Notes: generated by a model not told the origin, from the sequence alone. A DNA stretch of 41,938 nt from Nitrospirota bacterium (GCA_016178585.1 JACOTA010000039.1:1-41938); one strand, 5' to 3'; positions 795 through 21,452 are shown, counted from the stretch's first letter. Translations and numbers: made by a program.

Positions 795-1616
795 TTAGTT
801 GAAAAGGCCGAATCTTTTTTTCTTTTTTGAGAATAAAATTGATAGAAAAAATAGAAACGCCGCCAAAAGAACAATGGTTGCTCCGGATGGGAGGTCATAC
901 TCATAAGAAATAATGACCCCTCCGATGGAAGCAAAGACGCCGAAACCGATGGAGAGCGCCATCATCGTTTTCATTCGGCAGGCGAATTGATAGGCGGAAG
1001 CGGCGGGAATAATGACCATTGCAAAAACCAAAAGGGCGCCCACAGCTTTGAAAGAAATGACGATGGTCAGAGAAATCAGAGTCAGCAAGAGGAAGAAAAA
1101 CCGCCGGGCCGGGATTCCCGACGCTTCCGCCATATCCTGATCAAAAGTAATAAAATGGAATTCTTTATAAAACAGGAAAATAAGGAATAAAACGACCCCT
1201 CCCAAACCCAGCATAATTTCCAAATCGGCGGGGGTTACGGAAAGAATGCTTCCAAATAAATAGCCGTAAACCTCGGCATTATAAACCTTCATCAAACCGA
1301 TAAATAAAATAGCAAGCGCCATCGTTAAAGTATAAAAAATTCCGGTTGAAACGTCGAGTTCTGATTTTCCTTTTTCGTAAAGGGCGCCTATCGTCCAAAC
1401 TGTCCCCAGTCCAAAAACGATGGCCAGAACAAACGGATTAAACTGGATTAAATACCCCAGTGTGACTCCGGCGAATGCGGCGTGAGAAGTTCCAGCTCCG
1501 ATAAAAGAAAGACCTTTCAAAATGACAAATACGCCGATAATGGAACAGAGCGTTCCAATTAAAATCGAAGAGAGGAGCGCTCTCTGCATAAACCCGTAGT
1601 GAAGAAATTCAGCCAT
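795..1616 (-). CDS. znuB: Metal ABC transporter permease (ZnuB/MntB family)
   Basis: A 273-residue polytopic inner-membrane protein of the ABC-3 family that forms the channel of a Zn/Mn importer. It has about eight hydrophobic segments and the family motif GTSHAAFAGVTLG near residue 42, and KAVGALLVFAMVIIPAASA near 190, typical of the region that contacts the ATPase. Its start overlaps the end of the ATPase gene by 8 bases, indicating translational coupling. It is the last gene of the znuA-znuC-znuB order. The metal (Zn, Mn or Fe) cannot be settled from sequence; the symbol reflects the family. Confidence 0.88.
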   Translation of the reverse strand: MAEFLHYGFMQRALLSSILIGTLCSIIGVFVILKGLSFIGAGTSHAAFAGVTLGYLIQFNPFVLAIVFGLGTVWTIGALYEKGKSELDVSTGIFYTLTMALAILFIGLMKVYNAEVYGYLFGSILSVTPADLEIMLGLGGVVLFLIFLFYKEFHFITFDQDMAEASGIPARRFFFLLLTLISLTIVISFKAVGALLVFAMVIIPAASAYQFACRMKTMMALSIGFGVFASIGGVIISYEYDLPSGATIVLLAAFLFFLSILFSKKKKRFGLFN

Positions 1617-2424
1617 GATGGTCCTCCATGATCACATACGCCCCCCGCTCTCGCTCAAGAATCATGACCTCTTTGCCGTAAACTTTTGCCAGGGTTTCGT
1701 TCACCAGGACCTCTTTTGGTTTTCCGACGGCGATCAAACTCTTGTTTAAAAGGACCAGGCGGTCGATATAAGGACTAATCGTATTAATTTCATGGGTCAC
1801 AAAAATAATGGTCAAATGAAGTTCTTTATGCAGTTTTCGGATCAGTTCAATGATGGTGTGGGAAGTCGGAGAATCGATCCCGGTGGTCGGTTCATCCAAA
1901 AGAAGAATCTGAGGAAGCTGAGCCAGGGCCCTGGCGATAAACACCCTTCTCTGCTGTCCGCCGGAAAGGTTTCCCAAAGGAGTGTTTCTAAATGAGGCCA
2001 TGGAAACATTTTCAAGGGATTTCATGACAATTTCGTTATCTTTTTCTCCCGGGCGCTTAAAAAGTCCCAAGGAACTATAACGTCCCATTAAGACTGTTTC
2101 AAACACCGTGATCGGAAAATGAGGGTCGACGTTGTCTTTTTGGGGGACATAGCCGATCTTGGCCCTGTGACGACACTGAAGTTTCTCGCAATCGCAATCC
2201 AGAATGTGAAGACGGCCTGATTGGGGTAATATCAGGCCTAAAATTGCCCGTAAGAAAGTGGTTTTTCCGGAGCCATTGGGTCCGATGACGCCTATAAACT
2301 CTCCCTCCCTGATTTCCAGAGAAAGGTCTTTTAACGCGGGTGTTGTCGTGGAGTACCCAAAAGTGGCATTCTCAAAATGAATCAGCGCGGAGTTTGGCTG
2401 GGTTCGGGTTGTTTCGATATTCAT
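1609..2424 (-). CDS. znuC: Metal ABC transporter ATP-binding protein (ZnuC family)
   Basis: A 271-residue ABC ATPase. Visible motifs are Walker A GPNGSGKTT, the signature LSGGQQRR, Walker B LLLDEPTTGID and the switch histidine in FVTHE. The region VGYVPQKDNVDPHFPITV is typical of manganese/zinc importer ATPases. It would power uptake of the metal delivered by the binding protein encoded just upstream; its ATG follows that stop codon by one base, and its own end overlaps the permease gene. Confidence 0.9.
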   Translation of the reverse strand: MNIETTRTQPNSALIHFENATFGYSTTTPALKDLSLEIREGEFIGVIGPNGSGKTTFLRAILGLILPQSGRLHILDCDCEKLQCRHRAKIGYVPQKDNVDPHFPITVFETVLMGRYSSLGLFKRPGEKDNEIVMKSLENVSMASFRNTPLGNLSGGQQRRVFIARALAQLPQILLLDEPTTGIDSPTSHTIIELIRKLHKELHLTIIFVTHEINTISPYIDRLVLLNKSLIAVGKPKEVLVNETLAKVYGKEVMILERERGAYVIMEDHHG

Positions 2425-2425
2425 A

Positions 2426-3382
2426 TTAATGTTGGATCGCCTCTATCATTTGACGAACATTGTATTCAATCAGGGAGAGGTAGGTTTCGGTTCCAGGAAT
2501 TGCTCCGGTCAACGGGGAAAGGACAATCAGTTTGGCTCCGGTTTCAGCAGCCAGGATCTGGGGAATTTTAGGGCTAAGCTGCGGTTCTGAGATAATCACC
2601 CTGATATTATTTTTCCTGATCAGGTTAATGAGGTCTTTAACCTGTTTGGCCGATGGCTCGCTCCCGATCTGGGTCATGATGTTTCCCGCCACTCTGAAGC
2701 CAAAACGTCTCGTGAAATAAGGCCAGGCGGAATGCTGTGTGACGATGGTTTTATTTTTTAAAACTTTTAACTCGTTTAATAAAGAAGTTTCCATTCCGTC
2801 GAGTTTCATAAGATAGATTCCCTGATTCTTCAGGTAAAAATCTTTTCCGGCAGGGTCTTTCTTGATCAGACCCTCCGTGATTTTTCTGACCATATTCTTG
2901 GCATTTTCCGGATCAAGCCAGATGTGCGGGTTTCCCGCTTCGTTATGGCGGGCATCGTCTGATTCGATATGTTTTTCTTCTTCCCGGATCAGTGGAATTC
3001 CGTCAGAAGTGGTTAACACCAGCAAGCCGGGATTTTCCGCGTTTGAGATCAATCCCTGAACCCAGACCTCGAGGCCCAATCCGATTTGGACTAGAATCTG
3101 GGCTTTTTTAATTGCGAGGATATCACTCGGTTTCGGCGTGTAGGTATGTTCACTCTCCATTCCAGTGAGGAGACTGGAAACCGATACCCGGGTTTGTCCT
3201 ATCTGTTCGACAAAATCTTTCAGAACCGAAAGAGTCGTAACGACATTTATTTTTGCTTCATCGGCCCGGGCCGCAAAAGGGACTGCCCAGGGAAAAATCA
3301 AAACCACAAAAATAACGATGCTTAAAACCGAAAACCTCTTTCTCAGGACAATTTTTCCCGGGCCGGGTCTTTTAGAGATCAT
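2426..3382 (-). CDS. znuA: Metal ABC transporter substrate-binding protein (ZnuA/TroA family)
   Basis: A cluster A-1 (TroA-like) periplasmic metal-binding protein of 318 residues. After a signal region ending near VPFAARADEA comes INVVTTLSVLKDFVEQIG. Candidate metal ligands are the His of SEHTYTPKPSD, the His of GNPHIWLDPENA, the His of TQHSAWPYF and an acidic residue near the C-terminus. A modest His/acidic loop (EEKHIESDDARHNEAG) is the type seen in zinc binders. The ATG at 3382-3380 is preferred to a longer frame starting at 3454 because it lies one base after the rsmI stop, has GGTGAGGA upstream, and places the signal peptide near the N-terminus. Confidence 0.88.
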   Translation of the reverse strand: MISKRPGPGKIVLRKRFSVLSIVIFVVLIFPWAVPFAARADEAKINVVTTLSVLKDFVEQIGQTRVSVSSLLTGMESEHTYTPKPSDILAIKKAQILVQIGLGLEVWVQGLISNAENPGLLVLTTSDGIPLIREEEKHIESDDARHNEAGNPHIWLDPENAKNMVRKITEGLIKKDPAGKDFYLKNQGIYLMKLDGMETSLLNELKVLKNKTIVTQHSAWPYFTRRFGFRVAGNIMTQIGSEPSAKQVKDLINLIRKNNIRVIISEPQLSPKIPQILAAETGAKLIVLSPLTGAIPGTETYLSLIEYNVRQMIEAIQH

Positions 3383-3383
3383 C

Positions 3384-4109
3384 TTATTCCTCACCCTGAT
3401 GATGTTCGCTTTCCTTAAATTGGGAATCTGTTGATTTTTTTCTTCTGCCTTCAATTAAAAGGGTTATTTCTCCTTTAACGGCCCATTTTTTTTTAACAAT
3501 GCCGGATAATGTGCCATAAATAAACTCCTCAAATTTTTTTGTCAATTCCCTGGCAATGACCACCCGGCGTTCGCCGAAAACAGAATAAAACTCTTCTAGA
3601 ATTTTTAAAATCCGGTGCGGGGTTTCAAAAAAGATTAAGGTTTTCTTTTCGTCTTTTAATTCATCGATGACCCGGAGTCTGGCCGTTTTTTTTTTAGGCA
3701 GAAACCCGTTGAAGATAAAGGCATCGGTAGGAAGGCCTGATCCGGATAAGGCCGTTAAGAGGGCGGACGGCCCAGGTAAAGGGATGACCCTTATTCCGTG
3801 GTCGATGGCCTGATTGATTAACAAATAGCCGGGATCTGAAATCGTCGGGGTGCCGGCATCGCACACCAATCCAACGTTTCGGCCTTCTTTTAAAAATTGA
3901 AGCAGAATGGGGGCCTTTTCTTCTTTATTAAAGTCATGATAACTGGTTAAAACTTTTGAAATTTCAAAATGCGAAAGAAGCTTTTGCGTGTGCCTCGTAT
4001 CTTCAGAGGCGAGGACATCCACTTCTTTTAAGATGCGTAAAGCTCTTAAAGTCATGTCCTCTAAATTCCCGATAGGGGTTGGAATAATATATAAAACGCC
4101 CTGGCTCAT
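3384..4109 (-). CDS. rsmI: 16S rRNA (cytidine1402-2'-O)-methyltransferase
   Basis: A 241-residue tetrapyrrole-methylase-fold enzyme. RsmI uses SAM to 2'-O-methylate C1402 in the decoding centre of 16S rRNA. Family motifs are YIIPTPIGNLEDMTLRAL at the N-terminus, VLASEDTRHTQKLL, the glycine-rich GLVCDAGTPTISDPG, and GPSALLTALSGSGLPTD. Length is slightly below the usual 270-290 because the C-terminal domain is short. It sits between the cytochrome genes (42 bases upstream) and znuA (one base downstream), so it is probably co-transcribed, although no functional link is evident. Confidence 0.92.
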   Translation of the reverse strand: MSQGVLYIIPTPIGNLEDMTLRALRILKEVDVLASEDTRHTQKLLSHFEISKVLTSYHDFNKEEKAPILLQFLKEGRNVGLVCDAGTPTISDPGYLLINQAIDHGIRVIPLPGPSALLTALSGSGLPTDAFIFNGFLPKKKTARLRVIDELKDEKKTLIFFETPHRILKILEEFYSVFGERRVVIARELTKKFEEFIYGTLSGIVKKKWAVKGEITLLIEGRRKKSTDSQFKESEHHQGEE

Positions 4110-4151: not shown

Positions 4152-4628
4152 CTAACTCATCTTTTGGCCGGAATGGCATCTTCCGCAGTCATACAGAGGG
4201 AAAGCGACTTTCCCATGGCATCTTCCGCAGAACTCTCCTTGAAAGATCCTCTGCATGGAAACAGGGTTTGCGCCTGCTTTCGGCATAAAGATGGCCGGGT
4301 GGCAGTTAATGCAGTCGAGCCACTGGGTGTGCGGAAAATGGGGAAAGACGACGTCTTTGAGAGGATATCGTTTGTCGATTTTAAAAACAATGTTGAGGTC
4401 ATACGGTTTTGAAATCGGCTGAGAAGGGTCCAGCGAGTCTTTAGGGTGAATAGGACCCTGTTGAAGCGCCTTCACCCAATCAATGTAACCGGCTGGCGTG
4501 TTAGGAAGATATTCCAAGGCAATGGATTGGGCCGGTTGGTCGTTTGGGAAAACCGGGTTGAACGGAGGGATGGCACACCCCCCGATGATCATAAACATTA
4601 AAATAAAACGCGTTATTGAACTCATCAC
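4152..4628 (-). CDS. Triheme c7-type cytochrome, predicted lipoprotein
   Basis: A 158-residue protein with a lipobox at Cys18 (MIIGGC) and three CxxCH sites: residues 106-110, 134-138 and 148-152. FPHFPH at 95-100 supplies two likely distal His ligands. This arrangement is that of the c7-type triheme domain. Before the heme domain is a shared module, YLPNTPAGYIDWVKALQQG, then PK and a hydrophobic LNIVFKI segment. The same module and heme spacing recur in the proteins at 5879-6412 and 6839-7828, so the three are paralogues. Expected location is the periplasmic face of a membrane, carrying electrons. Partner and redox potential are unknown. Confidence 0.85.
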   Translation of the reverse strand: MMSSITRFILMFMIIGGCAIPPFNPVFPNDQPAQSIALEYLPNTPAGYIDWVKALQQGPIHPKDSLDPSQPISKPYDLNIVFKIDKRYPLKDVVFPHFPHTQWLDCINCHPAIFMPKAGANPVSMQRIFQGEFCGRCHGKVAFPLYDCGRCHSGQKMS

Positions 4629-4634
4629 GTCATT

Positions 4635-5828
4635 TCACGGCGAATACTTCTTAATATGAATTTGATAAAGGTCGTCTTGATTGTTTTCTTTCCACGCCAG
4701 ATAAATTTCCTGATCTCCTGAAAAAAGGAAAGGACTTAAACCGACCCGGTCGGCGTCGGCATTAATGGGCGCCATCACTTTTGTTGTCCCTGCCGGGAAG
4801 ATGGATTGCGCGACGATCTTCGGATGCCCCTGGGGATCCCGTTCTTCCCAGGCCAGCATTAATCCGCGGCGATTCGAAGCGAGTGTGGGATTAAAAACCT
4901 TTGCCCCGCGGTCAATTATTTCTTCCGGGTCATTTTTCCATCCTTCAGGGGCCAGATGTCGAAGTTGAAGTTTAAAATCTCCTTCCCGGTTTTTTTCTTG
5001 AAAGATCAGGTAAAGGGCGCCGTTAAATAAGGTCATGGAAGGATTAAAAGCCTGCATTTGGACGTCTTTATTTAAAGATTTTTTCTGAAAAAACCATTTC
5101 CCATCCTCTAAAGCCGCATGATAAATCTGAAAAACTCTTGTTCCATCCGCCTCAGGCCAGACCAAATGACCTTTCCGACCTTCGAAAATAAAACCGGGCG
5201 CCATGGTTGTATGCTGGTTTTCCAGGCCAAATCCAGGTCCTTCGGAGATCCAGGATTTTCCTTCCCAACGTTTAATATAGAGTCTGGACCATTCTTTTTC
5301 CCCCAATTCATTCCAGGCGATATACGGCGTATCATTTGAGAAGGCCAGCACCGGGTTCCGGGCCTCCTTTCCCGAATCGACATTCAGAGAATCGCCGAGC
5401 GAAATCCATTCCGAGCCGTTCCATTCCCTTACATAAAGCTGAGACACCTGATTTCCATTTTTTTCCGTCCAGGCGAGAAAGAGGGATTTTTCATTGGAAG
5501 CCAGAAAAGGTGTGGAAGCCGGAGAAAATCGGTCTTTATTCTGACCCTTTCCAAACGCCTCCCACGTTTTTTGATTCCGGTTTAGTTTTTTAATATAAAT
5601 TTGCTGAATGCCATGGGCATCCGGTTGGGTCCATGAGGCATAAAGCCCTCCCCTCCAAAAGGCGAGAGTAGGGGAAAGGGAATGCCGGCTGGAAAGCGTG
5701 TCCGGCATCGGAATGGTTTCGGGATTTAAACGATCGGAAAGGGAAACCCACCCCTCGCCATTGGCAGAAAACGAAAGAAAAGGGAGCAAAGTTAGAGTGA
5801 ATAAAAAATTCCTGAACTTTTTCAACAT
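4635..5828 (-). CDS. Secreted seven-repeat beta-propeller protein
   Basis: A 397-residue protein with a signal peptide (FRNFLFTLTLLPFLSFSANG). From about residue 50 it has seven repeats of 40-55 residues, each with a P-x-L core, a hydrophobic strand ending in AW or similar, an acidic turn, and Q-x-Y-x-K before a Trp. Examples are SPTLAFWRGGLYASWTQ (52-68), TPFLASNEKSLFLAWTE (106-122), NPVLAFSNDTPYIAWNE (158-174) and SPFLFSGDQEIYLAWKE (365-381). Seven repeats imply a seven-bladed propeller. No heme motif or catalytic residues are recognised. It is embedded among cytochrome genes, so a scaffolding, substrate-binding or cofactor role in that system is inferred. The ATG at 5828 is chosen over 5903 because it has GGGAGAA upstream and directly precedes the signal peptide. 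Confidence 0.7.
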   Translation of the reverse strand: MLKKFRNFLFTLTLLPFLSFSANGEGWVSLSDRLNPETIPMPDTLSSRHSLSPTLAFWRGGLYASWTQPDAHGIQQIYIKKLNRNQKTWEAFGKGQNKDRFSPASTPFLASNEKSLFLAWTEKNGNQVSQLYVREWNGSEWISLGDSLNVDSGKEARNPVLAFSNDTPYIAWNELGEKEWSRLYIKRWEGKSWISEGPGFGLENQHTTMAPGFIFEGRKGHLVWPEADGTRVFQIYHAALEDGKWFFQKKSLNKDVQMQAFNPSMTLFNGALYLIFQEKNREGDFKLQLRHLAPEGWKNDPEEIIDRGAKVFNPTLASNRRGLMLAWEERDPQGHPKIVAQSIFPAGTTKVMAPINADADRVGLSPFLFSGDQEIYLAWKENNQDDLYQIHIKKYSP

Positions 5829-5878
5829 TTCAAACGATTTCTCCCGGACCGCCGCGAAAAGGGAAAAAGGGGGCAGAA

Positions 5879-6412
5879 CTACGACTTGGGTTTGGAATGA
5901 CATCGACTACAATCACTCAGGGGAAAAGAGACTTTTCCATGGCATCGCCCGCAAAATTCCCCTTGAACTATTTTTTCCATGGTAACCGGATTTGAACCTG
6001 CCTGCATTTTAAAGATGCCGGGGTGGCAATTTCTGCAGTCGAGCCATTCCGTATGGGGAAGATGGGGATAAACCACATCGGGGATGTCCCCTTTTGCCTT
6101 AAAGATGATATTAAAATCAAGCGGAGGCATGGTTGGAATATTGGGGTCTCCGGTCAGATTTTCCTTGGGGTGGATGATCCCTTGTCGAAGGGCCTGAACC
6201 CAATCGACATAGCCCTGTTTGGCCTTGGGCAAATAATCAAACGCCAGAGGATGAGCTTCCTCAGACAAAGGTTCGGATCCCAGTGCAGATTTTTCAACGG
6301 GATTAGAAGAACTTTCCGTTCCGGTGACCTTTGAAATTTCGGAGTGTGCGCAGGAAGCCATCCCTATAAAAAGAGCCAGTGAAAAAACGGTTTTAAAAAA
6401 AAATTTATCCAA
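5879..6412 (-). CDS. Triheme c7-type cytochrome, predicted lipoprotein
   Basis: A 177-residue protein with a lipobox at Cys21 (FIGMASC), a low-complexity Ser/Glu-rich linker, the YLPKAKQGYVDWVQALRQG module (60-78), and three CxxCH sites at 126-130, 154-158 and 168-172. YPHLPH (115-120) offers two distal His ligands. It aligns almost end to end with the 4152-4628 protein: WLDC-x-NCHP, GEFCGRCHGKV and FPL-x-DC-x-RCH are identical in both. A recent gene duplication is likely. Its start is 2 bases after the stop of the cupredoxin gene, so the two are coupled. Confidence 0.86.
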   Translation of the reverse strand: MDKFFFKTVFSLALFIGMASCAHSEISKVTGTESSSNPVEKSALGSEPLSEEAHPLAFDYLPKAKQGYVDWVQALRQGIIHPKENLTGDPNIPTMPPLDFNIIFKAKGDIPDVVYPHLPHTEWLDCRNCHPGIFKMQAGSNPVTMEKIVQGEFCGRCHGKVSFPLSDCSRCHSKPKS

Positions 6413-6414
6413 AT

Positions 6415-6771
6415 TTACTTTTCTTTTCCAAGCACGGTGATAAGCCCGGTCATTTTATTATGAATAAAACAAAAAAACGGATAATCACCCGGTTCTTTAA
6501 AGGTATGGGAATAAAGGGTTCCGGGGTGGAAGTTATCCGCGAAGATTTCAAGGTCTTCAGTCGGTCCAGATCCTGGTACCGACGCGAGCACATGCTGGCG
6601 TTCATCGTTATTGTGCCAAACGATCGTATCTCCGACTTTTATGGTTAGTTTATCCGGAACAAATTTATAGCTATTTAAAAGAACCTGGATGTCGTATGTC
6701 TGAGGCTCTTCACCGTAAACGGTTAAAGGACTAAAGAATAAACCCAAAAGTATGAAAATAGTCAAGATCAT
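6415..6771 (-). CDS. Plastocyanin-like cupredoxin
   Basis: A 118-residue secreted type-1 copper protein. A signal peptide (FILLGLFFSPLTVYG) precedes a single cupredoxin domain. The copper ligands are visible as His60 (ERQHVLAS) and the C-terminal loop Cys101, His104 and Met107 (FFCFIHNKM). The sequences FVPDKLTIKVGDTIVWHN and EPGDYPFFC are typical of small blue copper electron carriers such as plastocyanin, amicyanin and pseudoazurin. Being between two triheme cytochrome genes with 2-base spacing downstream, it is inferred to exchange electrons with them in the periplasm. Confidence 0.88.
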   Translation of the reverse strand: MILTIFILLGLFFSPLTVYGEEPQTYDIQVLLNSYKFVPDKLTIKVGDTIVWHNNDERQHVLASVPGSGPTEDLEIFADNFHPGTLYSHTFKEPGDYPFFCFIHNKMTGLITVLGKEK

Positions 6772-6838
6772 GGCAGGCTTTTCTTATTATCCTGAAACTG
6801 GGAGAAAATGGCAAGCGTTACACCATTCACGCAGAACG

Positions 6839-7828
6839 CTATTTCGGAGGAGCGATAGAGGGTGGACAACCGACGCCCTTATTTCCACAAAGCTCCATGC
6901 TGACATCGCCGAAACCTGGAATAACGGTGCCTTCAAACTTATCTCCTTCTTTGGGAATCACATGACACCGGAGACAATCGCTTAAAGGAAAAGCTACGCG
7001 GTTATGACAGCGCCCGCAGTATTCTCCCGATGCGATTTTCGGCATTGTCATATTCTTGTTGGTTTCCGCATGGTTCATCAGAAAAATAGCAGGATGACAA
7101 TTGGTGCAGGATAACCACATGGTGTGAATTTTGTGAGGAAAAGCGACATTGGGCATGAAATTACTTTTGGTCGGAATATCAAAAGTTAAATCGAAAGGAG
7201 GCATGTCGGCTTCTTCAGGGTTTAACGATGGTTTTGGGGTGATTTTTCCCTGTCTTAAGGTATCTGCCCAATTGACTAAACCATATTGATCTTTGGGGAG
7301 GTCAGAAACTTCCAGCGCCAGGGGATGTTTGGCTAATCCTGATTTATAAGCATCTCCGGCAAAACCGGTAGGGTCTCCCTTTCCAGCCATGACCCCCCTT
7401 CCGCTTAAATAAATAGCCTCAGAGGGGGGGATTTTCGAAACTTCTTCTTTGGTTAAAGGGCGTTCATCAGGGCCCGGAGGAAGGGTAATGTGAGAAAGAT
7501 CGACTTCATTTCCCCCTGATAAAGGTTTTTCAGGGGCCGGTTTGACAGGTTCTGGCTTGCTTTCGGCTTTCGTTTCAGCCGGAGCGGTGGGCGCAGGGGC
7601 TGGCTCTGGCTCCGCAACAGGGGTAGTCGGCGCCGGAGTAGCCGTCGCAACGGGTGAAAGAGAACCCTCTTGCGGGGAGGCCTTAGTCTCAACCTTGGTT
7701 TCATCGGAGATTCGGGCAGGAGAACCTGAATCCGAGACCTGACTCGTATGAAACCACGAGCACGAATAAAGAAAGAAAACCCCTGTACCAATCAATAAAA
7801 GCTTCGAAAACTTCAATTTATTCATCAT
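6839..7828 (-). CDS. Triheme c7-type cytochrome lipoprotein with Pro/Ala-rich spacer
   Basis: A 329-residue protein. A lipobox at Cys23 (FFLYSC) is followed by a Pro/Ala/Thr/Glu-rich spacer (about 50-105) that could span periplasm or peptidoglycan. The shared module occurs at 177-194 (DLPKDQYGLVNWADTLRQ). The triheme domain has CxxCH at 241-245, 271-275 and 285-289, with FPHKIH at 230-235 as distal ligands. The tail carries two further cysteines (314 and 321) outside heme motifs. The start is ATG at 7828 or the adjacent ATG at 7825. It is the longest of the four cytochromes and seems designed to hold the heme domain away from the membrane. Confidence 0.85.
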   Translation of the reverse strand: MMNKLKFSKLLLIGTGVFFLYSCSWFHTSQVSDSGSPARISDETKVETKASPQEGSLSPVATATPAPTTPVAEPEPAPAPTAPAETKAESKPEPVKPAPEKPLSGGNEVDLSHITLPPGPDERPLTKEEVSKIPPSEAIYLSGRGVMAGKGDPTGFAGDAYKSGLAKHPLALEVSDLPKDQYGLVNWADTLRQGKITPKPSLNPEEADMPPFDLTFDIPTKSNFMPNVAFPHKIHTMWLSCTNCHPAIFLMNHAETNKNMTMPKIASGEYCGRCHNRVAFPLSDCLRCHVIPKEGDKFEGTVIPGFGDVSMELCGNKGVGCPPSIAPPK

Positions 7829-7881
7829 AGGACATCATCCTGACGTTTATCCAAAATGGAATGAAAATGATGATCGTTAGA

Positions 7882-8271
7882 CTATTTGACAAACCCTCTC
7901 GCCTTTGGAATGGAAATGTCACTCTTTCCAGAATGGCAGCGGTCGCAATAAATGGGCGGCCAGGCGATTCTTCCGTTATGACATTTGCCACAAAAATTCC
8001 CTTTGACGATTTTGACCATGGTAATGTCATTTGCGCCCTGTTTCATTTCAAAAATATTGGGATGACAAACTTTGCATTTAAAACGAATTCTATGAAACCA
8101 GTGGGGAAAAACCACCGGAGGCATTCCGGCTTTTTCGGCATAGTGATTCAATGTAATATCACCATATTCGGCTTTGCTGGTTGTGGCCGTGCTTAAAAGA
8201 CCCGCAATTGAAAAGATTGATGCGGAAACCGCAAGGAAAAGGGTAAGGCTGAAGATTTTTTTCTTATTCAT
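7882..8271 (-). CDS. Periplasmic triheme c7-type cytochrome
   Basis: A 129-residue protein with a cleavable signal peptide (likely cut after TSKA, residue 34) and no lipobox Cys, so probably soluble. CxxCH sites lie at 66-70, 94-98 and 109-113, and FPHWFH (55-60) plus His43 could be distal ligands, giving a compact c7-like triheme domain. It lacks the DW-x-x-ALRQG module of its three paralogues and has one extra residue between hemes 2 and 3. It is the promoter-proximal gene of the cluster; ATG 8271 has GGTGAG just upstream. Confidence 0.86.
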   Translation of the reverse strand: MNKKKIFSLTLFLAVSASIFSIAGLLSTATTSKAEYGDITLNHYAEKAGMPPVVFPHWFHRIRFKCKVCHPNIFEMKQGANDITMVKIVKGNFCGKCHNGRIAWPPIYCDRCHSGKSDISIPKARGFVK

Positions 8272-8336
8272 AGGCTCACCAGTTGAATAAAAAATATTAA
8301 TCGGAGTTGTAAAAGAATTGATGAAGAATGGAGGCT

Positions 8337-8365
8337 ACTTTAGCCGAATTGGAAAAGTGTGTCAA
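8337..8365 (-). promoter_or_regulatory. Sigma-70-type promoter of the cytochrome cluster
   Basis: On the minus strand TTGACA (8365-8360) is followed after exactly 17 bases by TAAAGT (8342-8337). The leader to the first cytochrome ATG at 8271 would be about 60 nt. All ten genes down to znuB follow with gaps of about 70 bases or less and no clear terminator seen between them. Confidence 0.65.
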
Positions 8366-8464
8366 TAGGAATTTTCAGTTATTTTTATGATTTTATTCAT
8401 CAAAGGAAAATTGGGTAAAATAATCAATCGGTACAGGAGGGTTTTCGGGCCTGCCAGGGTTAAG

Positions 8465-8605
8465 CCCAAGAACAGCGATAGAAAGTTGTCATTGCGAGCG
8501 AAGCGAAGCAATCTCGCCATCGTGAACCGAGATCGCCACGCACCCTGCGGGCGCTCGCGATGACAGGCAAAACAAGGAGTTACAAATCCTATCGCTGTTC
8601 TTGAG
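8465..8605. repeat. MITE-like 141-bp repeat, copy 1 (inverted relative to copies 2 and 3)
   Basis: Ends are CCCAAGAACAGCGATAG on the left and its near-complement CTATCGCTGTTCTTGAG on the right. The interior is made of palindromes, including GTCATTGCGAGCGAAGCGA with its partner arm. Its reverse complement differs from copy 3 (21312-21452) at about two positions. The flanks here (TTAAG and GGAGA) show no target duplication. Together with the rest of the 8272-8671 gap, which has no other gene, it separates the cytochrome cluster from pdhA. Confidence 0.85.
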
Positions 8606-8671
8606 GGAGAAGCTGACCATTCTCTTCTCTCTGATTTCGACGAGAAAGAGGTCAAGCGGTTTTATGAATCG

Positions 8672-9613
8672 ATGGAGCTTGCCCGCTCTTTCGATGAGAA
8701 AGCCCTTCATTTACAACGTCAAGGCAGATTGGGGACTTACGCTTCTATCAGGGGTCAAGAGGCTATCCAGGTCGGCGCAGGTCTGGCTCTTCAACCTTCG
8801 GATTGGTGGTTTCCCGCCTTTCGGGATATCGGTATTTCGATCATCAGAGGCCTTCCTTTAAAAAACCTTTTTTTTTACTGGTCCGGGGATGAAAGAGGAA
8901 ATGTCATTCCTCCAAACCAGAACGACTTCCCGATCGCGATTCCTGTGGGAACCCATATTCCCCATGCCGTCGGCGCCGCCTGGGGGGCTAAAATCAAAGG
9001 CGATCCGATTGCCGTGCTGGTTACTTTTGGCGATGGAGCGACGTCAAAAGGAGATTTTCACGAAGGGATGAATCTTGCCGGGGTTTTTTCCCTCCCCGTG
9101 GTTTTTTTATGTCAAAACAATCAATGGGCCATATCCGTCCCCCGGTCGAGGCAAACGGCCTCCCAAACCCTGGCTCAAAAAGCCATTGCTTATGGAATGA
9201 CCGGCGTTCAAATTGATGGTAACGATGTTTTCGGGGTGCATCAAACGACCAAAGCGGCGTTGGAAAAGGCCCGTAAGGGAGGCGGACCGACCTTTATCGA
9301 AGCTGTGACCTATCGGATGGGAGATCATACAACGGCTGACGATGCCTCACGCTACCGGTCGTCTGAAGAGGTTAAAGAGTGGGAAAAGAAGGACCCGATT
9401 CTTCGGCTAAAACAGTATATGAAAAATAAAAACTGGTGGACACAGTCCTATGAAGACCAGGTCAATCAAAACAGCCAGAATCGGATCTTGGAAGCGGTTA
9501 AAGAATATGAAGAATCCCCGCCTGTCGACCCCGGGGAAATATTTGACTATGTGTTTGAAAAACCAACGCCCGATCTGGTTGAACAGAAGAAAATTTTTCG
9601 GAAGAAAAAGTGA
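8672..9613 (+). CDS. pdhA: Pyruvate dehydrogenase E1 component, alpha subunit
   Basis: 313 residues from ATG 8672. It is the TPP-binding half of the E1 heterotetramer that decarboxylates pyruvate and transfers the acetyl group to lipoyl-E2. Motifs: QRQGRLGTYASIRGQEAIQV near the N-terminus, the TPP/Mg motif GDGATSKGDFHEGMNLAG with CQNNQWAIS, and the phosphorylation-loop-like YRMGDHTTADDASRYR. The frame stays open upstream of the ATG, encoding DFDEKEVKRFYES, which looks like the usual E1alpha N-terminal helix, but it runs into the repeat at 8465-8605 with no ATG, GTG or TTG. The true N-terminus may be disturbed by that repeat. Downstream, pdhB overlaps by four bases. Confidence 0.9.
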   Translation: MELARSFDEKALHLQRQGRLGTYASIRGQEAIQVGAGLALQPSDWWFPAFRDIGISIIRGLPLKNLFFYWSGDERGNVIPPNQNDFPIAIPVGTHIPHAVGAAWGAKIKGDPIAVLVTFGDGATSKGDFHEGMNLAGVFSLPVVFLCQNNQWAISVPRSRQTASQTLAQKAIAYGMTGVQIDGNDVFGVHQTTKAALEKARKGGGPTFIEAVTYRMGDHTTADDASRYRSSEEVKEWEKKDPILRLKQYMKNKNWWTQSYEDQVNQNSQNRILEAVKEYEESPPVDPGEIFDYVFEKPTPDLVEQKKIFRKKK

Positions 9614-10590
9614 AGATGGAAAAATTGACGCTTGTTCAAGCCATTAATCTGGCCCTGAAAGAGGAGATGGCAAGCAATCCCAATGTTGTTGTGATGGGAG
9701 AAGACGTCGGTAAAGATGGCGGTGTCTTCCGCGCAACGGTAGGATTACTTGAAGCGTTCGGTGAAAAACGGGTCATCGACACCCCTCTTTCAGAAACAGG
9801 TATTGTTGGCGCGGCGGTCGGAATGGCGGCTTATGGATTAATTCCGGTTGTTGAAATCCAATTTTTGGGGTTTATTTATCCCGCAATGGAACAAATTATC
9901 TCTCATGCCGCACGGTTACGAACCCGGACAAAAAGCCGCTATCATTGCCCCATGGTCATTCGGGCTCCCTATGGCGGGGGAATTCATGCTCCCGAGCATC
10001 ACTCTGAAAGCTCCGAAGCCTTATTTTTTCATGTCCCTGGAATAAAAGTGGTTGTTCCGTCGACGCCATCGGATGCCAGAGCTCTTCTGAAATCGGCGAT
10101 CCGGGACCCGGACCCGGTGTTGTTTTTAGAGCCTGCCCGGATTTACCGGTCGATCAAGGAGGAAATCAAAGGAGATGGTTTGGTTCCTCTGGGAGAAGCG
10201 CGAACGGCCAAAACGGGTAAGGATATCACATTAATCGCCTGGGGAGCGATGCTTCAGGTTGCCTTAAAAGCTGCTGAAGCGGTTCAAAAGGAAGGAATTG
10301 AAGCGGAGGTTATAGATTTAAGGACGCTCTATCCCATGGATACGGATAAAATAATAGAGTCGATTAAAAAAACAGGCCGCGGGGTTATCGTCCATGAGGC
10401 GCCCTTAAAAGGGGGGCTGGGAGGCGAAATCGCGGCGGTCATTCAGGAAAAAGCGCTCCTCTATCTTGAGGCGCCTGTCTCAAGAGTTGCGGGCTTTAAT
10501 ACCGCGATTCCCCTTCCGAAAATGGAACAGTTTTATCTGCCGAACCCTGAGGGGATTGTCGAGGCTATTCATCGAACGCTTTGTTTCTAA
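9610..10590 (+). CDS. pdhB: Pyruvate dehydrogenase E1 component, beta subunit
   Basis: 326 residues from a GTG that overlaps the pdhA stop (GTGA); the ATG at 9616 is an equally possible start. Transketolase pyrimidine-binding domain: VVVMGEDVGKDGGVFRAT, then IDTPLSETGIVGAAVGMA; C-terminal transketolase domain: GKDITLIAWGAMLQVALKAA and VIDLRTLYPMD. It pairs with PdhA to form E1; the conserved Glu of the GED motif region helps activate TPP. The subunit order alpha-beta-E2 is the usual one for a two-subunit E1. Confidence 0.93.
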   Translation: MKMEKLTLVQAINLALKEEMASNPNVVVMGEDVGKDGGVFRATVGLLEAFGEKRVIDTPLSETGIVGAAVGMAAYGLIPVVEIQFLGFIYPAMEQIISHAARLRTRTKSRYHCPMVIRAPYGGGIHAPEHHSESSEALFFHVPGIKVVVPSTPSDARALLKSAIRDPDPVLFLEPARIYRSIKEEIKGDGLVPLGEARTAKTGKDITLIAWGAMLQVALKAAEAVQKEGIEAEVIDLRTLYPMDTDKIIESIKKTGRGVIVHEAPLKGGLGGEIAAVIQEKALLYLEAPVSRVAGFNTAIPLPKMEQFYLPNPEGIVEAIHRTLCF

Positions 10591-10616
10591 CTTTATTTAC
10601 GGGTGGAGATTTATTC

Positions 10617-11870
10617 ATGCCGAAAGAATTTAAATTTGCGGATTTAGGCGAAGGGATTACCGAAGGGGAAATTGTAAAGTGGTTTGTTCAGGAAGGGTCC
10701 GCGGTTACCGTGGACCAGACCCTTCTTGAAGTTGAAACCGATAAGGCAATCGTACCCATTTCTTCTCCTTTTACAGGGATCATTAAAGCGATTCATGGAA
10801 AAGAAGGGGAAATCATAAAGGTCGGGGATGTGTTAGTGGAGTTCTCGGACGAAAGGCTTAAAAAAGATTTCGGGTCCGTTGTTGGCATACTGGAAGAAGC
10901 CCCGGAAGATTTGGAAGAGGCGCGGCCGGATCCTGGTGTCATTGAAAAGTCCCGTGCCATTCCTTCAGTAAGGGTTTTGGCCAGGTCGATCGGAGTCGAT
11001 TTAAACCGGGTGAAAGGAACGGGTCCCGAAGGACGGATTCGAAAAGAGGATGTTTTAGCTTATTCTTCAGCTTCAGAGGTGGAAAGCAAAAGGCTTGCGC
11101 CTCATGCTGCGCCAGGCGGGAAGCCGGAGTCGGGCGGCATTGAGATCGAAGTTGTCCGCCCTCCAGATTCAGTGGAGCGGATTCCTTTTAAAGGGATCAG
11201 AAGAACGGCCGCCAGGCTTGTGGTTGATTCGGTCCAGAAAATACCCCACGTTACCTTTATGGATAAAGCCGATATGACCCGTCTGCAAGAGGTGCGGGAG
11301 CAGGAGAAGACGGCGATCGAAAAACAAGGCCTTAAGTTAACCTATCTCCCTTTTATCATCAAATCGGTCATTGCCGGGTTAAAGCTCTATCCTTATTTAA
11401 ACTCAAGTCTGGATGAAGGTCGTCAGGAAATTATATTAAAAAAATATTATCATATCGGGATCGCTGTCGATACGCCAAACGGCCTAATGGTTTTTGCCCT
11501 CAAAAATGCCGACCAAAAAAGCATTCTCGAGATCGCGAGAGAACTCAATGATCTGGGTCAAAAAGCGGTCTCCAGAACCATTGACTTAAAAGATTTAAAG
11601 GGAAGCACTTTTACGATCACTAATTATGGGGTCATTGGCGGAACTTACGGGACGCCCATCATCAATTATCCCGAAGCCGCCATTCTGGGTGTTGGAAAGA
11701 TTGAAGACCAGGCCGTTGTCATCAACGGAAAAATTGTCATCCGAAAGATTGCCCCCCTCTCCCTTGCTTTTGATCATCGCCTTATTGACGGGGCGGATGC
11801 CGGCCGATTTTTAAACGCCGTGATCGAGCATATCCAGAACCCCAACCTTCTCCTCATCGAAAGCCGATAA
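10617..11870 (+). CDS. pdhC: Pyruvate dehydrogenase E2, dihydrolipoamide acetyltransferase
   Basis: 417 residues, three domains: one lipoyl domain (about 1-77, lipoylated Lys in VETDKAIVPI), a peripheral-subunit-binding domain (IPSVRVLARSIGVDLNRVKG, then TGPEGRIRKEDVLAY), and a catalytic acyltransferase domain ending with LAFDHRLIDGADAGRF, which holds the catalytic HxxxDG. ATG 10617 is chosen over an in-frame ATG at 10581 because GGGTGGAGA precedes it and the lipoyl domain begins at once. No E3 (lpd) gene lies in the window. A branched-chain 2-oxoacid specificity cannot be excluded, but gene order and E1 sequence favour pyruvate. Confidence 0.88.
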   Translation: MPKEFKFADLGEGITEGEIVKWFVQEGSAVTVDQTLLEVETDKAIVPISSPFTGIIKAIHGKEGEIIKVGDVLVEFSDERLKKDFGSVVGILEEAPEDLEEARPDPGVIEKSRAIPSVRVLARSIGVDLNRVKGTGPEGRIRKEDVLAYSSASEVESKRLAPHAAPGGKPESGGIEIEVVRPPDSVERIPFKGIRRTAARLVVDSVQKIPHVTFMDKADMTRLQEVREQEKTAIEKQGLKLTYLPFIIKSVIAGLKLYPYLNSSLDEGRQEIILKKYYHIGIAVDTPNGLMVFALKNADQKSILEIARELNDLGQKAVSRTIDLKDLKGSTFTITNYGVIGGTYGTPIINYPEAAILGVGKIEDQAVVINGKIVIRKIAPLSLAFDHRLIDGADAGRFLNAVIEHIQNPNLLLIESR

Positions 11871-11878
11871 AAGTCTCC

Positions 11879-12016
11879 CCCAAGAGAGATAGGATTTGTA
11901 ACTCCTTGTTTTGCCTGTCATCGCGAGCACCCGTAGGGTGCGTGGCGATCTCGGTTCAAGATAGCGAGATTGCTTCACTTCGCTCGCAATGACAACTTTC
12001 TATCGCTGGTCTTGGG
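11879..12016. repeat. MITE-like repeat, copy 2 (138 bp)
   Basis: Same element as copies 1 and 3, same orientation as copy 3. It has a 3-bp deletion in the left terminal repeat (CCCAAGAGAGATAGG) and a few substitutions, some of which keep the internal hairpins paired (CACCCGTAGGGTG here, CGCCCGCAGGGTG in copy 3). It begins 8 bases after the E2 stop codon. Flanks TCTCC and TCCTC are not a clean target duplication. Confidence 0.85.
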
Positions 12017-12030
12017 TCCTCTTTTTCATA

Positions 12031-12060
12031 TTGACGGTTACGGCTGAATTGTGCTAATTT
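12031..12060 (+). promoter_or_regulatory. Possible promoter for ilvBNC
   Basis: TTGACG (12031-12036) and TAATTT (12055-12060), spaced 18 bases, with TG upstream of the -10 (TGCTAATTT), an extended -10 form. It starts 14 bases after repeat copy 2 and about 100 nt before the ilvB ATG. The leader shows no T-box or attenuator that I can recognise. Confidence 0.45.
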
Positions 12061-12158
12061 ATTGAAAAATCGTCCATTTTTATTTCCTTTTTTGGAAATT
12101 TAATTTCTTGATTTAAAGACGACTTTCTTAAAACGAAAAACAGGGTAGGAATTTTTCT

Positions 12159-13922
12159 ATGAAGTTGACAGGCTCCCAAATTTTACTTGAATCTCTTAAG
12201 AAAGAAGGGGTCGATACCATTTTTGGTCTTCCCGGAGGGGTGGTGTTGGGTATTTTTGATGCCCTTTATCATGAAAAGGCCCTGAAGGTCATCTTGACCC
12301 GCCATGAGCAGGGGGCCATGCATATGGGTGAGGGGTATGCCAAAGTAACCGGTAAAGCGGGGGTCGTTCTGGTGACCTCGGGACCCGGAGCGACCAATAC
12401 CGTGACAGGGTTAACCAACGCCTATATGGATTCCTGTCCACTGGTGGTGATTACCGGTCAGGTGCCTACTCAAATGATTGGGAACGACGCCTTTCAGGAA
12501 GCCGATATTGTCGGAATCAGCCGTCCCTGCACGAAGTATAGTTTTCTCGTCAAAGATGTCAAAGATCTTGCCCAGATTATCAAAGAAGCGTTTTATATTG
12601 CGACCACCGGGCGCCCTGGTCCGGTTTTAATTGATCTCCCCAAAGATGTGACCTTTGCCAAAACCGAGTTTAAATATCCCGATAAGGTTTCGATCCGGAG
12701 TTATAACCCAACCATTCAGGGAAATAAATGGCAGGTCAAACAGGCGGCTCTTTCCATCGCAAAGGCCAAAAGACCCGTTTTGTACGTGGGTGGCGGTGTG
12801 GTGCTCTCTAATGCTTACGACGAAATCAAGGAATTGGCTGAACTAACCCAGATTCCGGTAACGATGACCTTAATGGGATTGGGGGCTTTTCCAGGCACAC
12901 ACCCTCTTTCCCTGGGAATGCTGGGCATGCATGGCTTGGCCTGCGCCAATTGGGCCGTTCATGACTGTGATCTATTAATTGCCGTGGGGGCGCGGTTTGA
13001 CGACAGGGTTACCGGTAAGGTTTCTGAATTTGCGCCCAATTGCGAGGTGATCCATATTGATATCGACCCCACTTCGATCCGAAAGAATTTTAAGGTAGAC
13101 GTTCCGATCGTCGGGGATGTGAAGAGTGTTTTAAAAGAATTAAATGAGGTCATTAAAAATTCTTTTATCGGCAACGAAGATTTGAAGGCGTTGAGAAAAC
13201 CCTGGATGGCTCAAATTGGACAATGGAAAAAGGAACGGCCGCTGCAATATCATCAAGAAGCGGATGTCATTAAGCCCCAGTTTGTCATCGAAAAGCTCTA
13301 TGAACTCACCAAGGGAAACGCCATTGTAACCACCGATGTCGGACAACATCAGATGTGGGCGGCGCAGTTTTATAAATTTAATCAATCCCGTACCTTTTTA
13401 AATTCCGGAGGTTTGGGAACGATGGGTTACGGTTTCCCCGCGGCTCTGGGAGCCCAGGCGGCTTTTCCGGAAAAACTTGTGATTAATATTAGCGGGGATG
13501 GAAGCATCCAGATGAATATTCAGGAATTGGCGACTGCAGTGGTGGAAAACCTCCCGGTGAAGGTAGCGATTTTGAATAACCGATATTTAGGAATGGTTCG
13601 CCAATGGCAGCAGCTTTTTTACGAAAACCGGTATTCTTCCAGCTATCTCGATCAAAGCCCCGATTTTGTCAAATTGGCCGAAGCCTACGGAGCGGTGGGA
13701 CTCAGAGCGTCCAGGCCCGATGAAGTCGAGGGCGTCATTCTCAAGGCGTTAAAAGTTAAAGGGCCCGTCGTCATGGATTTTGTGGTGGATTCCAATGAAA
13801 ACGTTTATCCTATGGTTCCGGCCGGCGGGTCAAACTACGCCATGGTTTTCGAAGATCCGAAGCCTGTTCAGGAAGACAAGCCTGCCCGATTGGCAGATCC
13901 CGATTCAATTTTAACCGCGTAA
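12159..13922 (+). CDS. ilvB: Acetolactate synthase, large (catalytic) subunit
   Basis: 587 residues. It condenses two pyruvates to 2-acetolactate (or pyruvate with 2-ketobutyrate), the first common step to Val, Leu and Ile. TPP-enzyme architecture: N-terminal domain with [15 protein letters not shown] and the catalytic Glu in [17 protein letters not shown], a central domain binding FAD, and a C-terminal TPP domain with the motif [18 protein letters not shown] ending in [33 protein letters not shown] is typical of biosynthetic AHAS rather than catabolic enzymes. The start has GGTAGGAA upstream. It is followed 18 bases later by its regulatory subunit. Confidence 0.96.
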
Positions 13923-21311: not shown

Positions 21312-21452
21312 CCCAAGAACAGCGATAGGATTTGTAACTCCTTGTTTTGCCTGTCATCGCGAGCGCCCGCAGGGTGCGTGGCGATCTCGGTTCACGATGG
21401 CGAGATTGCTTCGCTTCGCTCGCAATGACAACTTTCTATCGCTGGTCTTGGG
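21312..21452. repeat. MITE-like 141-bp repeat, copy 3, with target duplication
   Basis: Begins CCCAAGAACAGCGATAGG and ends CTATCGCTGGTCTTGGG. AATCG is present directly before (21307-21311) and after (21453-21457), a likely 5-bp target-site duplication. Internally it is a chain of palindromes with no ORF. It is near-identical to the reverse complement of copy 1, pointing to recent movement. Confidence 0.9.

Follow-up and report, generated by a model that had tools for sequence, protein, structure and literature searches.

A triheme cytochrome, cupredoxin and beta-propeller gene cluster in a Nitrospirota bacterium is probably the periplasmic part of a Uet-type electron transfer pathway

We analyzed a 41,938-nucleotide stretch of DNA from a Nitrospirota bacterium (GCA_016178585.1 JACOTA010000039.1:1-41938), hereafter referred to as the window, which represents contig C39 of a 2.45-Mb genome that is 96% complete. 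Named relatives matched by our triheme query place this genome in the class Nitrospiria and identify its related family f9 as Manganitrophaceae. On the minus strand, from 8271 to 4152, the window carries six genes, here called CytA, CytB, Cup, CytC, Prop and CytD in that order, for four triheme cytochromes, a cupredoxin and a beta-propeller. An earlier note on this DNA had described them as adjacent genes for exported redox and propeller proteins under a shared promoter, forming a candidate undescribed electron-transfer system. All six reading frames are present, with successive gaps from CytA to CytD of 53, 67, 2, 50 and 6 bp (Prop start taken at 5828), and rsmI lies next after CytD, 42 bp away. 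This spacing makes a shared promoter plausible, but it is not shown: a possible TTGACA-17-TAAAGT promoter upstream of CytA (8337..8365, minus strand) is only suggestive, as promoter-like sites are no commoner there than in shuffled sequence. The cytochromes proved homologous to those of Uet, the undecaheme electron transfer pathway of Tenderiales and Gallionella (PMC10734462, PMC5371394).

Each of the four cytochromes contains exactly three CXXCH motifs and exceeds the curated cut-offs of both models of the c7-type triheme domain, PF14522 and TIGR04257, which therefore gives the 12 hemes originally proposed. CytA (7882..8271; 129 amino acids (aa)) is a soluble exported cytochrome of the UetD type (PF14522, 54.5 bits; TIGR04257, 69.7 bits) and, like Cup and Prop, has an ordinary signal peptide. 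By inspection, the other three look like lipoproteins, all of the UetE/G type: CytB (6839..7828; 329 aa; lipobox ...LYSC), which has a long Pro/Ala linker; CytC (5879..6412; 177 aa from a TTG start; TIGR04257, 66.8 bits); and CytD (4152..4628; lipobox IGGC; TIGR04257, 62.2 bits), of 158 aa from GTG or 157 aa if the ATG at 4625 is the start. None of the three has Asp at position +2, and the usual sorting rule would therefore place them in the outer membrane. The genome has only four strong triheme homologs, and all of them sit in this cluster. Among solved structures, CytC comes closest to the triheme domains of 3ov0, a dodecaheme protein (E = 2.5e-32). Two distal histidines (HxxH) accompany the domain, and a Met stands 9 residues ahead of the second CXXCH in 237/250 triheme domains. 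By analogy with the domains of GSU1996, in which one heme is His-Met ligated (PMC10138318), each triheme domain is predicted to bind two bis-His hemes and one His-Met heme.

The three lipoprotein cytochromes share a motif, absent from CytA, that had been written as DW-x-x-ALRQG and regarded as novel. The motif is indeed present, but its exact form is [DN]W-x-x-[AT]-L-[RQ]-Q-G (NWADTLRQG in CytB, DWVQALRQG in CytC and DWVKALQQG in CytD), and its novelty did not hold, because the module also occurs in Uet loci of Pseudomonadota such as that of Leptothrix discophora. Judged by sequence, the DW-x-x-AL module is a feature of the UetE/UetG type and no novelty of this locus.

Cup (6415..6771, minus strand) encodes a secreted cupredoxin of 118 aa that scores above the cut-offs of PF00127 (36.8 bits) and PF13473 (36.1 bits), and its type-1 copper ligands His, Cys, His and Met are invariant across 12 orthologs, which bears out the single type-1 copper centre predicted. 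Wherever a class genome has a Cup ortholog (13 genomes, in families f1, f3, f5, f6 and f7), its gene immediately precedes CytC; no ortholog was found in Manganitrophaceae or in Pseudomonadota Uet loci. Prop (4635..5828, minus strand) encodes a secreted beta-propeller of 397 aa. The seven repeats noticed at first correspond to a confident seven-bladed fold in the AlphaFold model (predicted local distance difference test, pLDDT, 82.4; predicted template modelling score, pTM, 0.83), but the start is most likely at 5828 (MLKKFRNFLFTLTLLPF..., with a clear signal peptide) and not at 5903. Prop matches no Pfam family, and searches of PDB sequences and PDB folds returned only generic propellers and no specific relative. 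Prop and CytD are adjacent in families f1 and f5, and in four other Nitrospirota metagenome-assembled genomes (MAGs) a propeller and a CytD-like triheme domain are fused in a single protein of ~565 residues, the C-terminal part of which is 44-54% identical to CytD. Two genes adjacent in the window are thus naturally fused elsewhere, good evidence for joint action of their products. Prop also matches propeller proteins of Manganitrophaceae, but these are different proteins encoded away from the triheme genes, and we did not treat them as orthologs.

We further searched the same genome with UetA and UetC of Manganitrophus and found a Uet-type porin-cytochrome operon on contig C28, whereas the earlier note had recognised no partner for the cluster. 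Its genes encode, in order, a Reg_prop protein (X375), a pentaheme cytochrome, an NHL protein, UetA, UetB, UetC, a second NHL protein and UetJ, and no triheme gene is among them. UetJ has 956 aa and 11 CXXCH motifs, and UetA is a tetraheme cytochrome with 4 CXXCH motifs; UetB is a peptidyl-prolyl isomerase (PPIase; PF00639), and the two NHL proteins belong to PF01436. UetC is 33% identical to its Manganitrophus homolog, and in the PDB it best matches MtrB, the porin of the Mtr complex (E = 4e-9). The UetC model, which ends in Phe, shows 30 long antiparallel strands at moderate confidence (pTM 0.59), and closure of the barrel is not certain. A giant open reading frame directly follows UetJ, exceeding 2,900 aa in this genome (G000; L189 11255-20000) and 1,580 aa in the sister genome G002 (L192 1-4755), with no Pfam match within the stretches scanned. 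The genome also has a bd-like oxidase homolog, found as a partial match; Manganitrophaceae are thought to rely on a bd-type oxidase (PMC9040806). A second possible multiheme system lies on contig C17 (L185 of G000, 5689-12822), with a 24-heme c7-type cytochrome, a cytochrome b561-like membrane protein, an FAD oxidoreductase and a cytochrome of at least 11 hemes that is cut by the contig end.

The absence of conserved synteny in relatives had been named beforehand as an outcome that would speak against the proposal. The six genes, their order and their flanks are all kept in the sister genera G001 and G002, and conservation extends in part beyond them. Family f5 retains CytA, CytB, CytC, Prop and CytD, with Cup before CytC, and five further Nitrospirota MAGs have CytA-CytB-Cup-CytC in this order, four of them with the Prop-CytD fusion elsewhere in the genome; the expected co-occurrence of cupredoxin and propeller with the cytochromes was thus borne out. 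Among 98 class genomes, CytC homologs (E <= 1e-20) were detected in 28 and UetJ in 27, all 27 falling within the 28 (Fisher test, P about 3e-23, a naive value that ignores kinship). G015, the CytC bearer without a UetJ match, has UetA and UetC and carries window-type CytA and CytB directly beside the pentaheme of its Uet operon. Triheme genes lie close to rsmI in several Manganitrophaceae and other class genomes as well, a shared proximity suggesting that the triheme part has kept an older location. A motor-like module of a TPR gene, ExbB and two ExbD genes recurs beside these cytochromes: in families f3, f5 and f7 its neighbour is the triheme cluster, and in the present genome it is a pentaheme cytochrome on contig C11 (L186 6219-11965).

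A tree of 56 triheme domains resolved two clades with 98/100 support, each with members from Nitrospiria, Manganitrophus and the Uet loci of Pseudomonadota. In the UetD-type clade, CytA groups with trihemes 1 and 4 of the Pseudomonadota loci; in the UetE/G-type clade, CytB, CytC and CytD group with trihemes 2 and 3. The published pathway comprises a tetraheme UetA, the PPIase UetB, the porin UetC, the trihemes UetDEG, the NHL proteins UetHI and the undecaheme UetJ (PMC10734462). In Candidatus Tenderia, three paralogous triheme genes, interrupted by a TPR gene, span Tel_16515 to Tel_16530, and an undecaheme gene (Tel_16545) is close by in locus-tag order (PMC5371394). With A and C denoting the two triheme types, the Pseudomonadota locus (Leptothrix, Polaromonas, Rhodoferax and Thiodiazotropha included) reads NHL-UetA-UetB-UetC-A-C-UetF(TPR)-C-A-NHL-UetJ; Leptothrix discophora, whose locus has this same arrangement, falls close to isolates of a group for which UetJ has been reported (PMC13386937). 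The Manganitrophaceae locus reads UetJ-NHL-UetC-UetB-UetA-NHL-h5 and adjoins a divergent A-C-TPR-X375 set. Of 80 named loci found by trihemes alone, 31 have a UetA, UetB, UetC or UetJ homolog within the stretch fetched. Uet-type clusters occur in every Manganitrophaceae genome searched (L161, L096, L086 and others), and six other families of the class have them too; the complex PCC_1 was reported as confined to Manganitrophaceae (PMC9040806). Outside Nitrospirota and Pseudomonadota, MAGs of Aquificales (L088, L090, L091 and L093) show a distinct compact arrangement of fused hexahemes of A/E types, an 11-heme cytochrome and a possible porin of 708 aa.

These results suggest, with a probability that we put at roughly 0.77, that the cluster supplies the periplasmic relay for extracellular electron transfer of the Uet type, and that the genes for its outer-membrane conduit lie elsewhere in the genome. 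This reading is favoured because CytA is homologous to the UetD type and CytB, CytC and CytD to the UetE/UetG type, because the genome has the C28 operon, and because the two parts co-occur almost perfectly. The original idea of an electron-transfer module that probably joins an outside partner to the cell interior is thereby retained, but not that of an undescribed system without a recognisable partner, as the cytochromes are homologous to published Uet types (PMC10734462, PMC5371394). In such a pathway, UetJ inside the UetC barrel and an extracellular UetA would exchange electrons with the outside partner; CytB, CytC and CytD, lipid-anchored on the periplasmic face of the outer membrane, would take them onward from UetJ; and soluble CytA and Cup would carry them to the inner membrane. 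Cup may pair mainly with CytC, and Prop may hold CytD in place or dock it to a partner. The His-Met heme and the type-1 copper suggest a fairly high-potential chain. By analogy with described Uet bearers, which are cathode or iron oxidisers (PMC10734462, PMC5371394), electrons probably flow inward, taken up from iron, manganese, a cathode or another cell; uptake is favoured over export because of this high-potential chain and these lifestyles.

Several points weigh against a split Uet pathway. Conduit and relay are on different contigs (C28 and C39) and do not form the single locus typical of Uet, and their functional coupling is putative. No UetF TPR gene lies in the window cluster (it was not sought genome-wide). 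Neither a heme-copper oxidase, sought as an inner-membrane partner, nor a match to the NrfD-like subunit (PF03916) was found in the whole genome. Counted by family, CytC and UetJ are both present in seven and both absent from six; the pattern follows family lines and thus reflects far fewer independent events than 98 genomes. G004, G007 and G008 have a second triheme pair, and their window-type set could serve a different partner. Finally, the name Uet rests here on gene order and heme counts compared with published descriptions, not on alignment to Candidatus Tenderia.

The direction of flow is the point on which the nearest alternative differs. Multiheme conduits can run both ways and the c7 trihemes of Geobacter serve metal reduction, so the same Uet relay might run outward, in anaerobic metal respiration or direct interspecies electron export, a direction that would suit a 96%-complete genome with no heme-copper oxidase. 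Export nevertheless appears rather unlikely to us, given the bd-like oxidase homolog, an oxidase type that Manganitrophaceae are believed to depend on (PMC9040806), the high potentials suggested by the His-Met heme and type-1 copper, and the cathode- or iron-oxidising habit of described Uet bearers (PMC10734462, PMC5371394).

The cluster could also form a periplasmic redox system of its own, only remotely akin to Uet, with another partner, for example the 24-heme and at-least-11-heme cytochromes of C17 or a periplasmic oxidoreductase. C17 does pair its 24-heme cytochrome with a b561-like membrane protein and an FAD oxidoreductase, families f3, f6 and f7 have the window-type set alongside a Uet-linked triheme pair, and in f3, f5 and f7 that set stands by the ExbB/ExbD/TPR module and not by UetABCJ. 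We consider this improbable, as the cluster's cytochromes are the sole trihemes in the genome and its sister genomes, whose Uet operon has none, Uet parts are found in every class genome with trihemes, and in G015 CytA and CytB directly adjoin the Uet operon pentaheme. As for the unrelated and wholly undescribed system first proposed, the exact six-gene combination was not found in the literature searched, but clear homology to and co-occurrence with Uet leave it hardly credible, the C28 operon and the tree having largely refuted it.

The searched literature, which did not include the 2022 Tenderiales paper naming Uet, yielded neither a cupredoxin and propeller with Uet nor the exact six-gene combination. 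What stands of the earlier view is the combination with Cup and Prop, which were not found in the Uet descriptions read; the remainder is Uet-type. New with respect to the Uet pathway are the splitting off of the triheme set, the position of Cup before CytC and the pairing of Prop with CytD. We tentatively propose, at somewhat less than even odds, a hybrid heme-copper form of Uet in several Nitrospirota families, in which Cup would be the obligatory partner of one triheme lipoprotein and Prop would physically carry another, forming a high-potential periplasmic branch that draws electrons from metals or other cells. If the cluster is indeed a Uet relay, the pathway, described from iron- and cathode-oxidising Proteobacteria, extends over at least seven Nitrospiria families including manganese oxidisers; its periplasmic half is then able to move independently of the conduit, and cluster-based pathway searches will miss such halves. 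The cupredoxin-triheme pair and the propeller-triheme fusion may help in studying electron passage across the periplasm of these uncultured groundwater bacteria.

Other features of the window were also recorded. A dispersed inverted-repeat element with termini TGTCAT(T/C)GCGAG...CTCGC(A/G)ATGACA, which could form a strong hairpin (z = -2.95), occurs at 8487-8566, just upstream of CytA, at 11916-11995, at 21352-21430 and at about 17368, and sequence flanking it recurs across many contigs of the genome. A pyruvate dehydrogenase E1-alpha-like gene at 8590-9613 encodes 313 aa, compared with 357 aa in the sister G001; it apparently lacks the N-terminal stretch of its counterpart, in the place of which sits the 8487-8566 repeat copy. 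Downstream of rsmI, a ZnuA/ABC-3 type metal uptake operon spans 795-3454, in a neighbourhood kept in G001 and G002.

Comparison with known systems places these proteins more closely. GSU1996, the dodecaheme cytochrome of Geobacter (3ov0), shares the c7-type triheme domain with one predicted His-Met heme but has four domains per chain and no DW module, cupredoxin or porin link. The PpcA-family c7 cytochromes are likewise small periplasmic triheme carriers, but the sequence match is weak (E about 1e-3) and all their hemes are bis-His, whereas the cluster domains have two distal His and a Met. Compared with MtrCAB/MtoAB, the window cluster has no decaheme cytochrome or porin (neither was sought genome-wide), and its C28 partner has 11 hemes. 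Alternative complex III has the NrfD-like membrane subunit that this genome lacks by PF03916 search. Cup shares its copper ligand set with amicyanin/plastocyanin-type cupredoxins but misses the curated NCBIfam threshold in each of the two equivalog models (34.3 against 110.2 and 41.8 against 87.85 bits), and its proposed partner, unlike theirs, is a triheme cytochrome.

A Uet-like locus in Candidatus Manganitrophus (GAC4, CP114561) and its relatives, which may be among the PCC complexes (PCC_1/2/3) of PMC9040806, comes from the same class, has a triheme pair beside UetA/B/C/J, NHL and pentaheme genes and, like the window, has rsmI close by. It differs in having a single A-type and a single E-type triheme, in lacking a cupredoxin, and in carrying the X375 Reg_prop propeller in place of Prop. 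With Uet of Tenderiales and Gallionella, the cluster has in common both triheme types in homologous positions, and the genome as a whole holds the undecaheme UetJ, tetraheme UetA, PPIase UetB, porin UetC, two NHL proteins and the trihemes. Unlike Uet, the cluster has four trihemes in the order A-B-C-D and no UetF TPR gene, and adds a cupredoxin and a non-NHL seven-bladed propeller, while the C28 operon adds a pentaheme and a Reg_prop protein. Although not a canonical Uet locus, the cluster thus belongs to Uet by most of the features tested, departing from it in two and extending it by two, Cup and Prop.

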